Assembly (NCBI RefSeq): GCF_001280425.1
Contig: NZ_LIUF01000004.1
Location: 414,076-478,075, forward strand
Length of the DNA: 64,000 nucleotides
Direction of reading: 5' to 3'
Source: Haloarcula rubripromontorii
Lineage (GTDB): Archaea; Halobacteriota; Halobacteria; Halobacteriales; Haloarculaceae
Below the pieces are notes generated by a model. It did not search any database and was not told where the DNA came from. It saw nothing but the letters and a program-made list of their open reading frames with translations. The translations under genes were made by a program, and so were the position numbers. This document shows, piece after piece, positions 41,805-51,082 of the stretch. Numbering within the stretch: the stretch's first letter is position 1; every line of letters starts with the position of its first letter.

Positions 41805-41993
41805 CGCTCGGACCGATCCAACGGTCGGGATGGCTGGCGGCGGTGACCCGATGAACAGGGGGTTTCGGCACCGCAGTATTGCTGGGTCTGCTGAGTGGGT
41901 CCGTTCCTACCTTCGTGTGTGATTGAGACCTGTCGAGCGTCAGACGGAGGGTGAGCGTTTGCTCCCGAAACGGAGATTCGTGCAGAAAAGTCT

Positions 41994-42011
41994 ATTACAT
42001 ACGACTGTAAT
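41994..42011. promoter_or_regulatory. Inverted repeat over HTH-operon promoter, motif site C
   Basis: ATTACA-TACGAC-TGTAAT has perfect 6-bp arms. It overlaps the likely TATA element (TATTAC, about 25 bp before ATG 42020), which fits a repressor operator. Read on the minus strand, the 14-bp core is TACAGTCGTATGTA. It differs by one base from the core at 50041-50054 and fits TACA-N-TCGT-N-TGTA. Confidence 0.6.
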
Positions 42012-42019
42012 GGCTACGT

Positions 42020-42592
42020 ATGAGCAATACCGCGGACGATGGTCGGGCTGACGGGTCGCCACCGTCCACGGCAGAGTTCACACCGGAGCGAGTGCTCTCG
42101 GTGTTTCAAGATCGGACGGACCAAGCGAAGCCGTTGACAGCAACCGATGTGATGGACGCGCTCGGCTGTTCCCGGAAGACGGCACACAACAAGCTCGACA
42201 TACTCGTGGAACGAGGGGAGCTGGAAACGCGAAAAGTCGGCGCACGGAGTCGGGTCTGGTGGATCCCGTTCTCCCAGCTCGTCGGCACAGGCACGGAGCC
42301 ACACCAGGACCGCGAGCCACCAGTCGAGCGCAGCATCGCCGATGCGGACCTACCGGGGACGGGGGAGACACTGGACGACCGACGTACGGCGTTGCGGGCC
42401 GCGTACGATTATCTTCGTGAAAACCCTGATACCGATGCCGGGAAACTCATTACCGAGGTGTTTCAGGAACACCCGGCGGGCTACAAAACCGCTGACGAGT
42501 GGTGGGACGCTATCGGACCCGCTCTAGAGGACCTCCCACAGGTTGACCTGGCTGCCGACCACGAACACGTCTGGCACTACGTCGGTGGGTGA
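42020..42592 (+). CDS. HTH-domain transcriptional regulator of the Nramp-like operon
   Basis: The 190-residue protein has a winged-helix region at about 38-85 (LTATDVMDALGCSRKTAHNKLDILVERGELETRKVG, in fragments) followed by RVWWIP. This pattern is common in haloarchaeal IclR/MarR-like regulators. The second half, about 110-190, contains RTALRAAYDYLRENPDTDAGKLI and GYKTADEWWDAIGPAL, a helical domain of unknown role. It is the first gene of an overlapping operon with the Nramp-like transporter (GTGA overlap). Its promoter carries an inverted repeat, also found twice near the lactate permease, so it may control both. Confidence 0.8.
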   Translation: MSNTADDGRADGSPPSTAEFTPERVLSVFQDRTDQAKPLTATDVMDALGCSRKTAHNKLDILVERGELETRKVGARSRVWWIPFSQLVGTGTEPHQDREPPVERSIADADLPGTGETLDDRRTALRAAYDYLRENPDTDAGKLITEVFQEHPAGYKTADEWWDAIGPALEDLPQVDLAADHEHVWHYVGG

Positions 42593-44355
42593 GTCCATCG
42601 ATGCCAGAGGAAAAGCCGACGGAACAGTCGGACGTAGCAGAAGAGACGGAGTCAGAGACAGCAGAGGTGTACGCCTCTCGAAAAGAGCAGCGGTATCCCA
42701 TCTCATCGTACACCCCAGTCGCGTATGACAATCTCGAAGCGGCACCGGAGAGTGATGCCCATCCGGACACGGGAACGGGCGGGCGGTTCAGAGAACTCTC
42801 GTTGCCGAAAGTACCGAAGCTCCGCCACGTCGTCGGTCCCAGCGCAATCATGCTCGGGGCATCGCTCGGGAGCGGTGAGACGCTGTTCTGGCCGCATCTG
42901 GTCGCCAGCTACGGCTGGGGGCTGTACTGGCTGTTCCTCGTGGCTGTCAGCCTCCACTTTATCATCAACACCGAGATACAGCGGTGGACACTCGCGACCG
43001 GTGAGAGCGTGTTTCGGGCGTTCGAACGGGTTCATCCGGTCCTCCCACTGGCCATGCTACTGGGCGGGTTCGTCAGTCTCGGCTGGCCGGGCTGGGCCGC
43101 AAGCGCCGCGCGAATCGGGGCTGAAGGGCTCGCTCTCGGCACATATGACTTCGCCGGCGTCGACATCGTCGGCTGGCGGCTGTTCGGCATCGGGCTCATG
43201 GTGTTCATCTGGGTTACCTACCAAGTGACGCCGCTGATGTACAACGTCGTCGAGAGCCTCCAGCTTGTTCTGGTGGCGCTGTCCATCGCGTTCACACTGT
43301 TGCTGTTCGTACTCATCGGGTCGGTGGACGTGCTGTTTGGCGTCCCGGGAAGTCTGACTGAAGTCGGTGACTACTCGCCGGTCGGGACCATCGCCGTGCT
43401 GGTCGGCGCGCTGGCCTACGCCGGGGCGGGCGGCTACCTCAACCTCTCACAGAGCCTCTGGATACGCGAGAAAGGCTACGGAATGGGCCGGTATCAGGGC
43501 CGGATCAAGAACCCCTTCGCCGGCGATGACCCCGAAACCGTCCACGAAGACGGGTTCACGTTCACCCCAGACACGCAAAACCTCAAACGGTGGCGGGGCT
43601 GGTGGCGCGTCACACAGCTCGAACACCTCTTGACCTTCCTGCTTGGTCTCCTTCTGGTCACGACGATACTGGTCGTCATCGCGGTGTCGCAGGCACCGGG
43701 GACGACGAGTGACGCAGTAGATATGTGGCTCATCGAGATTGCGCCGTCGGTCGGCGGGGTCACGACGAGCGTCATCTACGTCACGCTGTTTCTCGCTCTG
43801 TTCACAACCGAATACGCGATCATCGAGTCGTTCGTCCGGAACAGTTCCGATATCATCTACGAGCTGTACGGGCGAGAAGCGGGCTGGAGCCTGCCGCGGC
43901 TGTTCTGGGGGTTGCTGACCGTCTTCTGTGGCTGGGGCGTGCTCATCCTCACCCTGCCGATATCGATATCCGACCCCTTCGGACTCCTGGTCGTTGGGGC
44001 AGCGATGTCCGGGTTGTTGATGTGGCCCTACATCGTCATCGTCCAGCTCGTCAACACAGTCCGGCTCCCGGAACATACGATGCCGGGCTGGGGGCGCGTC
44101 GTCGCGATGTGGGTCGCCGCCGCGTTTTTCGGGTATTTCAGCGTCCTCTTGATTGGCACGGGACTGACGACACGGCTGGGATTACGGGCGTTCACCGTCA
44201 AGCCAACCGTACTCGGCAGTGGACTGGGAGGGTACGTCCTCTGGGCAGTCTTCCTGCTCGTCCAGGTGTATACGATGTATCGAGTCGGACGTGCGAAGGT
44301 TGCGGCAGACGGAACGGTCGCTGACGCGGCCACTGCGAAAGGGTGGTTCTCGTGA
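42589..44355 (+). CDS. Nramp-like (LeuT-fold) transporter lacking canonical metal motifs
   Basis: The 588-residue membrane protein has a long hydrophilic N terminus (1-75) and about 11-12 helices. TM1 reads GASLGSGETLFWPH (GSGE at 94-97) where true Nramps have DPGN. TM6 reads AYAGAGGYLN (279-282) where Nramps have MPH. Hence the metal-coordinating residues are missing. Related GSGE-type proteins occur in actinobacteria, planctomycetes and haloarchaea and are often mis-called divalent metal transporters. A cytosolic loop with the sequence RIKNPFAGDDPETV follows TM6. Transported substrate is unknown. The start GTG 42589 overlaps the HTH stop; ATG 42601 is an alternative. Confidence 0.83.
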   Translation: MSPSMPEEKPTEQSDVAEETESETAEVYASRKEQRYPISSYTPVAYDNLEAAPESDAHPDTGTGGRFRELSLPKVPKLRHVVGPSAIMLGASLGSGETLFWPHLVASYGWGLYWLFLVAVSLHFIINTEIQRWTLATGESVFRAFERVHPVLPLAMLLGGFVSLGWPGWAASAARIGAEGLALGTYDFAGVDIVGWRLFGIGLMVFIWVTYQVTPLMYNVVESLQLVLVALSIAFTLLLFVLIGSVDVLFGVPGSLTEVGDYSPVGTIAVLVGALAYAGAGGYLNLSQSLWIREKGYGMGRYQGRIKNPFAGDDPETVHEDGFTFTPDTQNLKRWRGWWRVTQLEHLLTFLLGLLLVTTILVVIAVSQAPGTTSDAVDMWLIEIAPSVGGVTTSVIYVTLFLALFTTEYAIIESFVRNSSDIIYELYGREAGWSLPRLFWGLLTVFCGWGVLILTLPISISDPFGLLVVGAAMSGLLMWPYIVIVQLVNTVRLPEHTMPGWGRVVAMWVAAAFFGYFSVLLIGTGLTTRLGLRAFTVKPTVLGSGLGGYVLWAVFLLVQVYTMYRVGRAKVAADGTVADAATAKGWFS

Positions 44356-44789
44356 CCGACGAACTCCGCGTCCACTTGCACTATACGATGCGGGGCTCGT
44401 ACCCGCTTCGGCTGGTCGACGTGTTGTTCTGTACAGAACGGGCGTACTTCGTCGAGTACGACTATCTGACACCCGTCGACCTGGTGTTCGGATCGCCGGG
44501 TCAGCGGGCCGCCGCGTTCGCCTCACGGGTGGTCGAAGAGGGCGTCCCGGCGGCCATCGAGACAGCCGAACAGGTCGACACGCAGTCATACGACACACTC
44601 GACAGCGTCGATATCCACACGGGTGGCCGAGTCGGTCGGCCGAAAATCACAGCACGGCCTCGAACAGAATCCGCAACGACGGTTCGCGTCCACGGGCAGT
44701 TCGACGCCGACCCGTTCACACAGGCGCTTCGGTCGACAGTGGACGGGCACGACGTCACCGTCAGACAAAGGGACGGTATCGGGTTCTAA
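44352..44789 (+). CDS. Unknown protein, third gene of the HTH-Nramp-like operon
   Basis: The 145-residue acidic protein begins with GTG at 44352, overlapping the transporter stop (GTGA), so it is almost surely a real gene. It has strands such as LRVHLHYTMRG, LVDVLFCTERAYFVEYDYLTP, DLVFGSP and TTVRVHGQFDADPFTQALR. An alpha/beta fold with a likely C-terminal substrate- or dimer-contact motif is suggested. No family is recognised. Consistent coupling implies that it works with the transporter, perhaps as a regulatory or substrate-binding partner. Confidence 0.75.
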   Translation: MTDELRVHLHYTMRGSYPLRLVDVLFCTERAYFVEYDYLTPVDLVFGSPGQRAAAFASRVVEEGVPAAIETAEQVDTQSYDTLDSVDIHTGGRVGRPKITARPRTESATTVRVHGQFDADPFTQALRSTVDGHDVTVRQRDGIGF

Positions 44790-44820
44790 CTGCACACGGC
44801 GGTTGTCACCGGACACCCAG

Positions 44821-47800
44821 TTACCGTATCGCCGCTGCGACCATCTCGATTGGATGTGGCGGTTCCGCGTCGCCATCGGCGAAATCGTCAATCTGAGACC
44901 GACAGGACGCGCCGGGGGCGACAACCTGCTCGGCGGGCGAGTCAGCGATCTGTCCCAGCAGGAGATCAGCGATGCCCTCGCTCATCGAATAGTGTTCGGC
45001 CTCGTAGCCGAAGGAGCCGGCCATGCCACAACAGCCTGAATCGAGCGGGTCCACATCGTAGCCGGCCCGCCGGAGGACGCCCACGGCGTGATGGTCCTTC
45101 TTCGTCGCCTTCTGGTGGCAGTGGCCGTGGTAGGCCAGCGACTCGCCAGCCTCACTAAAGGAGATAGCCTCCCCAAGCCGGTACGTGTCGATGTACTCGC
45201 AGACGCCGTACGTGTTCTCTGCGACGGCATCGACGTCGTCGCCGGAAAGGAGGTCCCGGTAGTCGACCTGGTACATCACCGCGTCGGAGGGCTCGATAGT
45301 GACAACGTCCCAGCCCTCACGGATTCGCGGCGCGAGGGCGTCCACGTTCGCCCGTGCCGTCTCGCGAGCGTGGTCCAGCATACTCTTGGAGAACGCGGGC
45401 CGGCCGCTGTCTGTCACGTCGTCTGGCATGACGATGTGGACGCCCGCCGCCTCCAGCACTTCTACGGCCGCTTTCCCGACATCAGGGTGGCTGTAGTTCG
45501 TGTACGGGTCGGCGAGCAACAGCACCTTCCGGTCGGCTCTGCTCGCCGCGACAAGCGCCCCGCCGCGGTCGGCCCACCAGTCCCGGAACGTGGACCGGTG
45601 GAAGGCGGGCAGGGTACGCTCTTCCGTGATGCCGACCGTTTTCTCCATGAGGCGGCCCGCCCCCGGGAGGTCCATCAGCCAGTTCGACACTGGAGCGAAT
45701 GCACTCCCGACCGAGAGTACCGTCTCGACGTTGGCGAACAGCCGGTCCCGGAGCGAGATACCCTCGCGCTGGTGGTGTTCGTGGACCACCTCGGCCTTGA
45801 GCTTCGCCATGTCGACGCCACTCGGACAGTCCTTCTTGCAGCCCTTACAGCCGATACAGAGGTCCAGCACTTCGGTGACAAACTCCTCGTCGAATGGGTC
45901 GTCGGGGAGGTCGCCGTCCATCGCCGACCGGAGCATGTTGGCCCGGCCGCGAGTACTGGTGATTTCCTCCTCGGCAGCGCGGTAGGTCGGACACATCACC
46001 CCGCCCGTGGTCTCCTGATGGCCGGTACAGCCCGCACACCCGTGGCAGAGTTCGACCATCCCCTGGAACCCGTTTTCGTTATCCCAGTCGAGCGCGGGCT
46101 CGAAGCCCGCGTCGAACGCGTAGTCGGGGTCGTACCGGAGGTCCTCGGCCGGGTCGTGGTCGCCGCAGATGTTGCCCGGGTTCAGCCGCCAGTCGGGGTC
46201 GAACGCCGATTTCAGGTCGCGGAAGGTTTCCCAGAGGTCGTCGCCGTACAGTTTCCGGTTCCACTGGGTTCTGGCGCGACCGTCGCCGTGTTCCCCCGAC
46301 ACTGACCCGTCGTACTGGACGACGAGATCCGTGATGGCGTCGGAGATGGCTTCCATCGTCTCGATGCCATCGCCGGATTTCAGGTTCAACAGCGGCCTGA
46401 TATGCAACACGCCGGGGCCGGCATGGGCGTAGTATGAGGCGAAGGTGTCGTGCTCGTCGAACAGCTCCCGGATATCGGCGACGTACTCCGGGAGGTTCTC
46501 GGCCGGGACCGCCGTGTCTTCGACGAACGGCCAGTGCTTGTCGTCACCCGTTCGCGATAGCAGAATCGGCAGCCCGGCTTTGCGCATCTTCCAGAACTTG
46601 GCCTGCCGATCCGCGTCGTACGCCTCCAGCGCGTCGACGGCGTGAACGGGGGCGTCGGTGACCGACCCCGATCCCTCGCTCGGCGACGCCTTAGCGTCGT
46701 AGCCCGGGAGCCGGTCGGCGAGTAGGTCAGCGACCTTCTGAGCGCCGTCCTCGGCCGAGTCCGCGTAGAACTCGACGAGCAGCGTCGAATCCGTTTCTTC
46801 GGGAAGCATGCCGACGACATCGGCGAACTCCGGCGTCTCTGCGGCGAGGTCCAGCAGCACGTCGTCCATCACCTCGACCGCCGATGGGTCGTGGTCGAGA
46901 ATCGGGGCCACGTCCCGCATCGCCGAGATAATGTCGTCGTAAGTCAGCATGGCGACGGCGGTGGCCTCGGGGACGGGTTCCAGCGAGACTGTCGCCTCCG
47001 TCACGACTGCCAGCGTTCCCTCGCTTCCGGCGAGCAGTCGGGCGAGGTTGACCTCGCCGCGCTCCCTCGCGTTGTCGACCAGTTCGTCGAGGTTGTACCC
47101 GGAGACGTTGCGCTTGAGGTCGGGATACCTGGCATCGATTTCGGCGGCGTCCTCCGAGATTATCTTGGCGACTTCGGCGTAAATCCGGGTTTCGAGATCG
47201 GCGTCCGGCCCGGCCTCGGCCGCCCGCGCTTCGAGGTTATCGATGTCGACCCAGCCGAATGTTGTTCGAGTGCCGTCTGCGAGGACGACCTCACATTCCT
47301 CGATGTACGCGTCGGTCTTGCCGTACTTCAGCGAGTGCGCGCCGGTCGTGTTGTTCCCGATTGCACCGCCGAGAACGCTCTTGTCGCCCCACGCGGGGTC
47401 CGGCGCGAATTTCAGGCCGTGGGGTTCGAGTCGGTCGTTGAGTCGAGCGATGGTGATGCCGACCTGCGCACGGGCCTGTTCGGCCTCCGGGTCGACCGAC
47501 AGCGGTTCGTCCATGTGCCGCTTGAAATCGAGGACGACCGCCTCGTTTACCGACTGTCCGGCGAGACTGGTCCCGCCGCCCCGTGGGAGGACTGGAATGC
47601 CTTCCTCGGCGCAGTACTCCATCACCGCGACCACATCGTCGGTCGAGACCGGCGAGACGACGCCGATTGGGAGCTGTTCGTAGGCGCTCGCGTCAGTCGC
47701 GAACAGTTCCCGGGTGTACGCGTCGAAGCGTACGTCGCCGTCCACGCGACGCTCCAGGGCCGAAACGAGGTCCGGCCGGTTGACGCTGTCGCCCTGATAG

Positions 47801-47865
47801 TCGTAGTTCGCGCTCGGGTCTGTCGCCGGGTCGTGCTGTTGGGGGGGTCGGGAGTCGTATGCCAT
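44821..47865 (-). CDS. FAD-linked D-lactate/D-2-hydroxyacid dehydrogenase fused to Fe-S CCG domain
   Basis: The 1014-residue fusion has an N-terminal FAD-binding PCMH domain (PVLPRGGGTSLAGQSV, 91-106) and an FAD-oxidase C-terminal domain. A GlpC-like region follows, with two Cys clusters near 609 (CHGCAGC) and 666 (CIGCKGCKKDCP). A CCG domain ends the protein (HGHCHQ, DSGCCGMAGSFGYE, near 920-945); its first CCG half is degenerate. The layout matches YdiJ/Dld2-type D-lactate or D-2-hydroxyglutarate dehydrogenases that pass electrons to the quinone pool. It lies 25 bp downstream of a lactate permease gene on the same strand, so D-lactate (or glycolate) is the likely substrate. Confidence 0.9.
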   Translation of the reverse strand: MAYDSRPPQQHDPATDPSANYDYQGDSVNRPDLVSALERRVDGDVRFDAYTRELFATDASAYEQLPIGVVSPVSTDDVVAVMEYCAEEGIPVLPRGGGTSLAGQSVNEAVVLDFKRHMDEPLSVDPEAEQARAQVGITIARLNDRLEPHGLKFAPDPAWGDKSVLGGAIGNNTTGAHSLKYGKTDAYIEECEVVLADGTRTTFGWVDIDNLEARAAEAGPDADLETRIYAEVAKIISEDAAEIDARYPDLKRNVSGYNLDELVDNARERGEVNLARLLAGSEGTLAVVTEATVSLEPVPEATAVAMLTYDDIISAMRDVAPILDHDPSAVEVMDDVLLDLAAETPEFADVVGMLPEETDSTLLVEFYADSAEDGAQKVADLLADRLPGYDAKASPSEGSGSVTDAPVHAVDALEAYDADRQAKFWKMRKAGLPILLSRTGDDKHWPFVEDTAVPAENLPEYVADIRELFDEHDTFASYYAHAGPGVLHIRPLLNLKSGDGIETMEAISDAITDLVVQYDGSVSGEHGDGRARTQWNRKLYGDDLWETFRDLKSAFDPDWRLNPGNICGDHDPAEDLRYDPDYAFDAGFEPALDWDNENGFQGMVELCHGCAGCTGHQETTGGVMCPTYRAAEEEITSTRGRANMLRSAMDGDLPDDPFDEEFVTEVLDLCIGCKGCKKDCPSGVDMAKLKAEVVHEHHQREGISLRDRLFANVETVLSVGSAFAPVSNWLMDLPGAGRLMEKTVGITEERTLPAFHRSTFRDWWADRGGALVAASRADRKVLLLADPYTNYSHPDVGKAAVEVLEAAGVHIVMPDDVTDSGRPAFSKSMLDHARETARANVDALAPRIREGWDVVTIEPSDAVMYQVDYRDLLSGDDVDAVAENTYGVCEYIDTYRLGEAISFSEAGESLAYHGHCHQKATKKDHHAVGVLRRAGYDVDPLDSGCCGMAGSFGYEAEHYSMSEGIADLLLGQIADSPAEQVVAPGASCRSQIDDFADGDAEPPHPIEMVAAAIR

Positions 47866-47890
47866 GAGTGAGAACGGAAAGGTAGTCGAG

Positions 47891-49669
47891 TTAGAACGCG
47901 CCCGGTGCCACGACGTAGGCCAGGATGAGCGTCAGTATGCCCGTGAACACGCCGTAGTACAGTACCGGAATCAGTTCGAGGCGGATGACGCGTCCCTCCT
48001 CGCCGATGAGGCCGACCACGGTGAGCGCGGCCACAACGTTGTGAATCGCGATGAGGTTACCGATTGCGCCACCGACCGCCTGTGCGGCGACGATGATCTG
48101 CGTCGGCGCACCGATCTGCTGGGCGGCCTGGAACTGGAACAGTCCGAACAGGATGTCGCTGACCGTATTCGAGCCAGCGATGAACGCGCCGAACGCACCG
48201 ATGAAGCCCGAGAAGAACGGGAACATCTGGCCGGTCGTGCTCGCAGTAATCTCCGACAGCAGGCCGAGCATCCCGGAGTTGATCGGCGCGGTCTCCAGCA
48301 CGACGGCACTGCCGGTTCGTTGCATAATCATGACCGTGGCAACTGCGAACCACAGCGCGACGACGGCTGGTGCGATGTTCCGGAGTGCCTCACTCCACGA
48401 GGCTTTGATACCGTCAGTGTCCATCCCGTGGAGCGCGTAGGTGATCACCGCGACCAGCACGAAGAGGCTGCCGGGGAGGTAGAACAACTCGACGCCCTCT
48501 GAGAACGGCGTGCCGAGAATGTTGTTCCACATGAGAACGCCGTTGGTCGCCAGGAACTCCTGAATCGGACCGACGACGCGAGTCACGACGAGCAGCGCAG
48601 CCACGAGGAGGTACGGCAGCCAGGCCATCCCCAGCGACATGTCCTGCGAATGGGATTGTTCAAACGTTGCCGTGCCGCCGTCGGCCGCAACCGTACCCTC
48701 TCGGCTGTCGCCCGTAGTGGTGCCGACACCCTCTCCGGGTTCGATGCTGCCGATCCAGTGGTCCGGCCACTGGTCCTGTGGACCGAAGTCCCACTCGTCG
48801 TCGGGAAGGAAGTAGCCGGCCCGGAGCGTCGTCGTGACGACGAGGAGTCCGACCATCGCACCCAGCAGGCCCGGGAACGTCGGGCCGAGGAAGTACGCAG
48901 TCGCGACGTAGGGAATTGCGAAGGAAGCCCACGCGAAGAGACACAGCGGCAGGACTTCGAGTGCGGGCTTGATCGACCGCTCCTCGCCGAAGAAGCGGGT
49001 CATCATCGCCACGCCGATAAAGGGAATGGCGATGCCGACGATAGCGTGGATGATCGCAGCCCAGACGCCTATCTGGGCGACGTATGCGCCGACGCTCTCG
49101 TAGCCGCCCTGCTGAAGCACCTGCTGTGCAGCGCCCGTCCCCTCTGCGAAGACCACGTCACGCAATCCGATTATCAGCGGCGTGCCGACCGCACCGAACG
49201 TGATCGCGAGGATGTTCCCCGTGAGCGCGACGACCACGGCGGCAAGCGGCGGGAAACCGAGGCCGACCAGCAGCGGGCCGACGATGGCCGCAGGCGTCCC
49301 GAAGCCGGCTGCTCCCTCGATGAACGACCCCATGAGGAACACGAGCAGGATGACCTGTACGCGCCGGTCGTCGCTAATCGAGGAGAACCCAGCATTGATC
49401 ACCTCGAACGCACCGGACTGTTTCAGCGTGTACAGGAGGAGTATCGCCCCGAAGACGATAACGAGAATTCTGGTCGCTGTCAGCGCACCGCGTATCGACG
49501 CGGCGGCGATGAATCGGGGGGACATCTGCCAGCCGACGAAGGCGGCGATAGCCGCCACCGCCCACGCAATCGGCATCGTGCGTGTCGCGGGCTGGTACAG
49601 CCCGACCATCAGCACCGCAATCGTCGCCAGCGGCAGCAGTGCCAGGAGCACCAGTGTGTGCTCAGACAT
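47891..49669 (-). CDS. lctP: L-lactate permease family transporter
   Basis: The 592-residue membrane protein is a LctP/GlcA-family proton symporter. Conserved regions are [29 protein letters not shown] (in parts), [19 protein letters not shown], and a C-terminal [23 protein letters not shown]. It has 13-14 helices. Members import lactate or glycolate. It precedes and is probably co-transcribed with the FAD/FeS dehydrogenase (25 bp gap). It has a promoter at 49848-49857 with a leader of about 155 nt. An inverted repeat lies at the predicted transcription start, and two TACA-N-TCGT-N-TGTA repeats lie further upstream. Confidence 0.92.
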
Positions 49670-49811
49670 CGAGTCTCACCACCGAGAGACGCTCGTCCGG
49701 ACAGGGGACACTTGCACCGCCTATCCGCCCCGGGAAACGATCCCGGGTACTCATTTCGGAACCACCTCGGTCCACAGCTCTATCGCTCGAAACCTTCCGA
49801 GACAGCGGTTT

Positions 49812-49828
49812 CTGATGGAATGCATCAG
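49812..49828. promoter_or_regulatory. Inverted repeat at lctP transcription start
   Basis: CTGATG-GAATG-CATCAG has perfect 6-bp arms. It is centred about 30 bp downstream of the minus-strand TATA element at 49848-49857, so it overlaps the predicted transcription start. It could be an operator, or an mRNA hairpin at the 5' end. Confidence 0.5.
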
Positions 49829-49847
49829 TCACGTCGTTTAGCAGGGA

Positions 49848-49857
49848 GTATATATAC
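49848..49857 (-). promoter_or_regulatory. TATA box of lctP operon
   Basis: GTATATATAC, itself palindromic, lies 180 bp upstream of ATG 49669 and predicts transcription start near 49825. Confidence 0.55.
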
Positions 49858-49959
49858 CTATCTACCGTTTACATTATAGTCTGCCCAGAATAGCGTCGAA
49901 ACGGGATCGAGAGAGGTTGATACAGCAAAAATCAGGGATTATTTTGTACGAACCTCCGA

Positions 49960-49987
49960 TATCGGATACACTCGTGTGTATCCGGTA
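49960..49987. promoter_or_regulatory. Extended inverted repeat, motif site A
   Basis: Twelve-base arms with one mismatch surround a TCGT centre. The core, TACACTCGTGTGTA (49967-49980), fits TACA-N-TCGT-N-TGTA. It lies about 110 bp upstream of the lctP TATA box and 60 bp before the similar site B. Confidence 0.6.
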
Positions 49988-50039
49988 TAGCAGTTCTTTA
50001 CTCGGGGATTTCACTCGACTGTACTCCTGCTGAAACGCC

Positions 50040-50055
50040 ATACAGTCGTCTGTAT
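50040..50055. promoter_or_regulatory. Inverted repeat, motif site B
   Basis: ATACAGTCGTCTGTAT has perfect 6-bp arms around TCGT. Its 14-bp core differs by one base from site C (41996-42009, minus strand). The distance to site A is 74 bp, about seven helical turns, allowing cooperative binding on one face of the DNA. Confidence 0.6.
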
Positions 50056-50341: not shown

Positions 50342-51082
50342 ATGACGCGCGTCACAGTCTGGAACGAGTACGTCCACGAGCAGGAACACGAAGCGGTCGC
50401 AGACCTGTACCCCGACGGGATTCACGGCGCTATCGCCACAGCACTGGAAGAGCGCGGGTTCGATACGGAAACCGCGACGCTCCAAGAACCCGAGCACGGT
50501 CTCACCGAGGACGTACTGGCAGAAACGGACGTTCTGACCTGGTGGGGACACGCCGCACACGACCAGGTCGACGACGAGGTGGTCGCCCGGGTGAAAGAGC
50601 GGGTCCTCGACGGCATGGGACTCATCGTGCTCCACTCGGGTCACTACTCGAAGATTTTCCGCGAGCTGATGGGGACGACCTGCAGTCTGAAATGGCGCGA
50701 AGCCGCTGAAACCGAGCGATTGTGGGTCGTCGAACCGGGCCATCCGATCACTGATGGTATCGACGAATACATCGAACTCCCGGAGACCGAGATGTACGGT
50801 GAGCGCTTCGACATCCCCGCGCCGGACACGCTCGTATTCAATTCATGGTTCGAGGGCGGCGAAGTGTTTCGGTCAGGGTGTTGCTACCGCCGCGGAGCGG
50901 GCCGAATATTCTACTTCCGGCCGGGCCACGAGACCTATCCGATTTACCACGACGAAGCGGTCCAGCAGGTCCTCGCCAATGCTTGCGAGTGGGCTGCGGC
51001 CGAGGACGGACCGGAACCGTCGTTTGGCAACGCCGACCCCATCGAAGACATCGACGAAAACGACGAACGGTCGGTCCACTGA
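50342..51082 (+). CDS. ThuA-like (trehalose utilization) domain protein
   Basis: The 246-residue protein has a ThuA/glutamine-amidotransferase-like fold. Features are [67 protein letters not shown], and [32 protein letters not shown]. ThuA proteins take part in disaccharide metabolism in some bacteria, but the biochemical activity is unclear. The catalytic Cys of class I amidotransferases is replaced in this family. Start ATG 50342 is supported by an SD-like GGAGGTG. It is divergent from lctP across a large control region. Confidence 0.88.

Follow-up and report, generated by a model that had tools for sequence, protein, structure and literature searches.

A 190-aa protein encoded at 42020-42592 on the plus strand of the window (the whole 64-kb stretch of DNA that was analysed), here called the HTH protein, is with a probability of about 0.8 the dedicated, self-regulating factor of a haloarchaeal lactate regulon, in which it is predicted to bind the palindrome TACASWCGWSTGTA and likely to repress until its ligand is present. 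By sequence comparison, the predicted operators are real and conserved, are linked to the HTH gene and lie in a lactate context; binding, the dimer, repression and the ligand we infer.

Downstream of the HTH gene, on the same strand, are found a 583-aa Nramp-like (NF037982) membrane transporter (42604-44355; possible alternative start at 42589) and the third gene of this operon, encoding a 145-aa protein that belongs to no known family (44352-44789). The minus strand carries the LctP lactate permease (47891-49669, 592 aa) and a 1014-aa FAD-oxidase/4Fe-4S fusion (44821-47865). LctP scores 332 bits against Lactate_perm PF02652 (cut-off 27) and 331.2 against TIGR00795, slightly below the cut-off of 341.15. 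Profile matches and published work (PMC7714728, PMC8305020) place the fusion in the HVO_1697 type, and it is probably a lactate or 2-hydroxyacid dehydrogenase. The neighbour of lctP is a ThuA-domain protein gene (50342-51082, plus strand).

Operator O1 (41996-42009, minus strand, TACAGTCGTATGTA) lies in the HTH promoter and is the same in 12/12 close Haloarcula relatives. It directly follows or overlaps the TATA-like GTCTATTA, and the HTH start codon is 11-24 bp downstream. The sequence and the usual haloarchaeal spacing suggest 41990-41997 (plus strand) as the TATA element of the HTH-Nramp operon, which is probably leaderless. The lctP/ThuA gap contains O2 (49967-49980, TACACTCGTGTGTA), O3 (50010-50023, TTCACTCGACTGTA, one mismatch; at distances of 43 bp to O2 and 31 bp to O4) and O4 (50041-50054, TACAGTCGTCTGTA), each recorded without a strand; the start codons of both genes are some 300-385 bp away from these sites. 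A conserved TATA-like element at 49849-49856 (minus strand) marks the putative lctP promoter and is followed by a leader of about 155 nt; a second TATA-like element (GCTATACC, 49984-49991, minus strand) abuts O2. The original prediction had located O1, O2 and O4 correctly and overlooked O3; the single base difference that it reported between the 42-kb site and the site at 50041 is also found. The sites are palindromic, as it had claimed, but their true symmetry is TACASWCGWSTGTA and not the form then given.

The pattern had been picked after the sequence had been read, and chance was hence assessed genome-wide. With up to 2 mismatches, the window holds 10 strand-wise matches, whereas in 100 shuffled versions the count averaged 2.09 and reached 6 at most. 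The tighter form TACANWCGWNTGTA has three matches in the 3.97-Mb genome to which the window belongs, all in the window at the reported places, and its reversed control has none in that whole genome. The looser TACANNCGNNTGTA has four, three in the window and one within a large ORF. Most close Haloarcula genomes also have three TACANWCGWNTGTA-type matches, at the same two places in those listed. Further exact matches outside the locus, in those Haloarcula genomes that were inspected, all lie within one large ORF and were rejected as operators. Short palindromes can come about by chance, and the fourth loose match is inside an ORF, but the notion that the sites are chance or compositional palindromes is contradicted by the shuffles and genome-wide counts, and by the dyad scan, co-occurrence with HTH and density ratio given below. 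Conservation already refutes it, and we regard its probability as negligible.

Among the Haloarcula relatives covering the whole locus, the gene order is kept: HTH, Nramp-like permease, 145-aa protein, dehydrogenase and LctP (both on the opposite strand), and ThuA. O1 is unchanged throughout Haloarcula, and O3, situated between the other two gap sites, is conserved across the genus. The gap sites hold their 43- and 31-bp spacings while the flanking DNA drifts; in an alignment of the gap from 12 species, the operators and the TATA-like element at 49849-49856 form conserved blocks amid drifting segments. In the lctP leader (49670-49826 of the window), too, some segments, such as TCTATCGCTCGAAACC and GGTGCATCAGTCACGTC, are strongly conserved among Haloarcula species. 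A structured leader RNA was considered and rejected, the predicted fold having an unremarkable z-score of only -1.29. A scan for sigma-70-type promoters and terminators, with models not apt for archaea, returned nothing useful.

HTH orthologues were collected from genomes and named records and represent about 30 genus-level groups. In an unbiased scan of the DNA upstream of HTH, covering all 4352 palindromic 4-mer dyads with gaps of 0-16 against a background of 350-bp segments, TACA-N6-TGTA ranked first; it is found upstream of HTH in 16/30 genus-level groups and in 0.65% of background segments. Positions 5 and 6, which were free in the search, are also constrained (94% S and 99% W), giving TACASWCGWSTGTA. 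When sites with at most one mismatch are counted, 86 fall in the 62 kb upstream of HTH and LctP genes (620 bp before each) and 12 in 1041 kb elsewhere in the loci. The resulting density ratio is 120. Neighbouring sites no more than 80 bp apart show spacings of 21, 21, 21, 22, 28, 31, 42, 42, 43, 43 and 63 bp, mostly near multiples of the 10.5-bp helical turn; the list omits a 64-bp pair that is an unrelated repeat in locus L093.

A site is present at 41/59 LctP genes with HTH nearby and at 2/40 without HTH nearby. By group, 22/24 of those with an HTH-adjacent lctP have it; two groups have no recognisable site. One of the two exceptions without a nearby HTH gene (L185) keeps a one-mismatch operator; the HTH match next to its lctP is partial, with stops within it, and the regulator is possibly decaying or degraded. 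lctP has its own sites in at least 8 groups where the HTH and lctP promoters are separate. Many genera have HTH and lctP sharing one divergent gap, and a site there could serve HTH alone. Across 295 genomes, the motif and full-length HTH co-occur (27/42 HTH-positive genomes, a hand tally including five with split matches, versus 35/253; Fisher p 2.7e-11 with shared ancestry ignored), and they do so outside the genus (12/26 versus 35/252; Fisher p 2e-4, not corrected for phylogeny).

Binding by the HTH protein is deduced from such comparison, which would leave room for a different, unlinked regulator at the operators, with the HTH protein as a target gene only. We consider this unlikely: LctP genes 77-87% identical to that of the window, in genomes without HTH, had no motif in any case examined, the motif and HTH co-occur, and among the neighbouring genes no second regulator was seen to recur consistently. 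The operator tracks the HTH gene rather than lctP, in keeping with the common regulator originally proposed, and the HTH protein very probably binds the operators, regulating itself and controlling lactate uptake and oxidation. As a separate observation, the loci L170-L178 (genomes G116, G183, G164, G052, G121, G179, G166, G139 and G287), whose LctP falls in this identity range, have neither a close HTH orthologue nor the motif, which suggests that the permease moved by lateral transfer without its regulator.

In the approximately 30 genus-level groups, HTH orthologues adjoin LctP, the FAD/FeS dehydrogenase, the Nramp-like permease or additional LctP copies, and often LudBC. The 145-aa protein gene after the Nramp-like permease gene is conserved in many loci. 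A LudC/LudB-like pair joins the cluster in Haloferax, Halogranum, Haloarcula pellucida and others, and LUD domains were confirmed next to the regulator in Haloferax (L130) and Haloarcula pellucida (L098). Because these neighbours match the Haloferax volcanii lactate genes LudBC, lctP and HVO_1697, as given in PMC8305020 and PMC7714728, the locus is a lactate-utilisation cluster. The proposal that the two converging operons act as one unit finds support in other genera, where the same genes form a single lactate cluster with LudBC. The window's own genome has its LUD genes away from the window, on another contig or distant (LUD pair, G000:C12:40130-41262). No convincing operator is found near this pair, which was rejected as a regulon member there and would have separate regulation. 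In Natrialbales-type loci (L113, L116, L119, L121, L125, L133, L143 and L144), the Nramp-like gene is replaced by two or three LctP paralogues that surround the HTH gene. The ThuA gene was also rejected, since its homologues in other HTH-carrying genera sit elsewhere in the genome; the predicted link to ThuA thus has no conserved association outside Haloarcula, and the simplest reading of the gap sites is that they serve lctP.

An operator that abuts or flanks the TATA element is in the classical position for an archaeal repressor. In many genera, the operators of HTH promoters abut, flank or overlap TATA-like elements, and the HTH protein most likely acts as a repressor. A dimer would bind the palindrome. 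At its own promoter, serving HTH, the Nramp-like permease and the 145-aa protein, it would cover the TATA/initiation region, and at lctP-dehydrogenase it would occupy three operators on the same helix face, stacking of dimers on one face being suggested by the spacings near helical-turn multiples. Both operons would most likely stay repressed until the C-terminal domain senses lactate or a related 2-hydroxyacid, the gene context pointing to lactate, and the HTH protein is released. An activating role for lctP is possible because Haloarcula has two candidate lctP promoters. In that case the same protein would activate lctP from upstream operators and repress only HTH itself. In Haloarcula, 110-200 bp separate the lctP operators from the best-conserved TATA element (49849-49856) downstream of them, which fits an activator too, but the second TATA-like element abuts O2, resembling the layout of the HTH promoter, and the sites of other genera flank or overlap the promoter core. 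Activation of lctP is therefore a possibility that we hold only tentatively, and repression of both operons is the preferred reading.

The Nramp-like permease scores 231 bits against NF037982 (Nramp_1; cut-off 50), which labels it a divalent metal transporter. It has no match to Pfam Nramp (PF01566) at E values up to 1, a family matched by two other proteins of the same genome, and a search of solved structures returned no useful match. Its TM1/TM6-like motifs, which are invariant, read GASLGSGE and AGAGGYLN, whereas metal transporters have DPGN and MPHN; the argument from these motifs stays suggestive, since the genome's own Nramp proteins likewise have no literal DPGN or MPHN. The divalent-metal label is likely wrong, and the original name should not be taken to imply metal transport. 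A regulon centred on metal (Nramp) homeostasis, with the lactate genes as passengers, for example through the iron need of FeS dehydrogenases, would agree with the NF037982 label and with one data set in PMC7714728, in which lctP of H. volcanii went up in parallel with iron genes. This alternative is very unlikely in view of the Pfam and motif results and of the Natrialbales-type loci, which lack the permease but have lctP copies.

The HTH protein consists of a winged-helix N domain and a helical C domain to which no Pfam family corresponds. An AF2 model (pLDDT about 90 for residues 21-80) shows three helices and a two-strand wing, and the model and Foldseek agree on a winged-helix fold. The top Foldseek matches, none with an E value below 0.004, are mostly generic winged-helix proteins, and no family was matched by the C-terminal domain. 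The curated Pfam cut-offs of the IclR, ArsR (HTH_20), HTH_11 and TrmB families are not reached (HTH_20, 21.9 bits versus 27; HTH_IclR, 16.6 versus 22; HTH_11, 17.6 versus 25). Genome G057 has an exact operator-like site (L219 1501-1514) some 155 bp before a further winged-helix gene; the N-terminal domain of its product resembles that of the HTH protein, and this may be a related regulator that uses a similar site.

Among the closest known systems is the locus of H. volcanii, which has the same enzymes and permease. There, lctP-HVO_1697 is bicistronic and LudBC is implicated in lactate use, and the accessible text of PMC8305020 and PMC7714728 reports no regulator or operator. Gene order suggests that HVO_1695 may be the H. 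volcanii HTH orthologue; it is named a putative FeS protein in one paper. The open literature covered, partly as excerpts, describes no haloarchaeal lactate regulator and does not mention the motif, in agreement with the original prediction; subscription journals lie mostly outside this scope, and an earlier description is possible.

A predicted factor-operator pair this clean, with three sites per genome at a single locus and conservation across an order, is rare among archaeal catabolic regulons. It offers a test system for Haloferax or Haloarcula and a possible lactate-responsive promoter, and it gives grounds for doubting that the adjacent permease is rightly called a metal transporter. 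A larger claim, that the HTH protein represents a new archaeal regulator family across Halobacteria with a novel C-terminal lactate/2-hydroxyacid sensor, in-phase operator arrays and an Nramp-like permease turned carboxylate carrier after loss of metal transport, is conceivable but speculative.

Of the known regulator families, HVO_A0261-type proteins (PF25213) show weak similarity to the winged-helix part in 35/36 HTH family members; the protein of the window reaches 18 of the 35 bits required, and its C-terminal half is unmatched. Haloarchaeal TrmB, whose operator is TACT-N7/8-GAGTA, is likewise a winged-helix metabolic regulator with a palindromic operator. However, its domain is matched weakly in only 6/36 HTH family members, its operator differs and no sugar-binding domain was matched in the HTH protein. 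The bacterial lactate regulators LldR (GntR/FadR family) and LutR are similar in being dedicated local regulators beside lactate permease and dehydrogenase genes, with palindromic operators in a lactate context. The HTH protein differs from these in having no match to the GntR HTH or the FCD domain at E values up to 1, in its archaeal promoter context and in its operator. Together with its 14-letter palindrome, it points to a lactate switch that is so far undescribed and otherwise ordinary in design.
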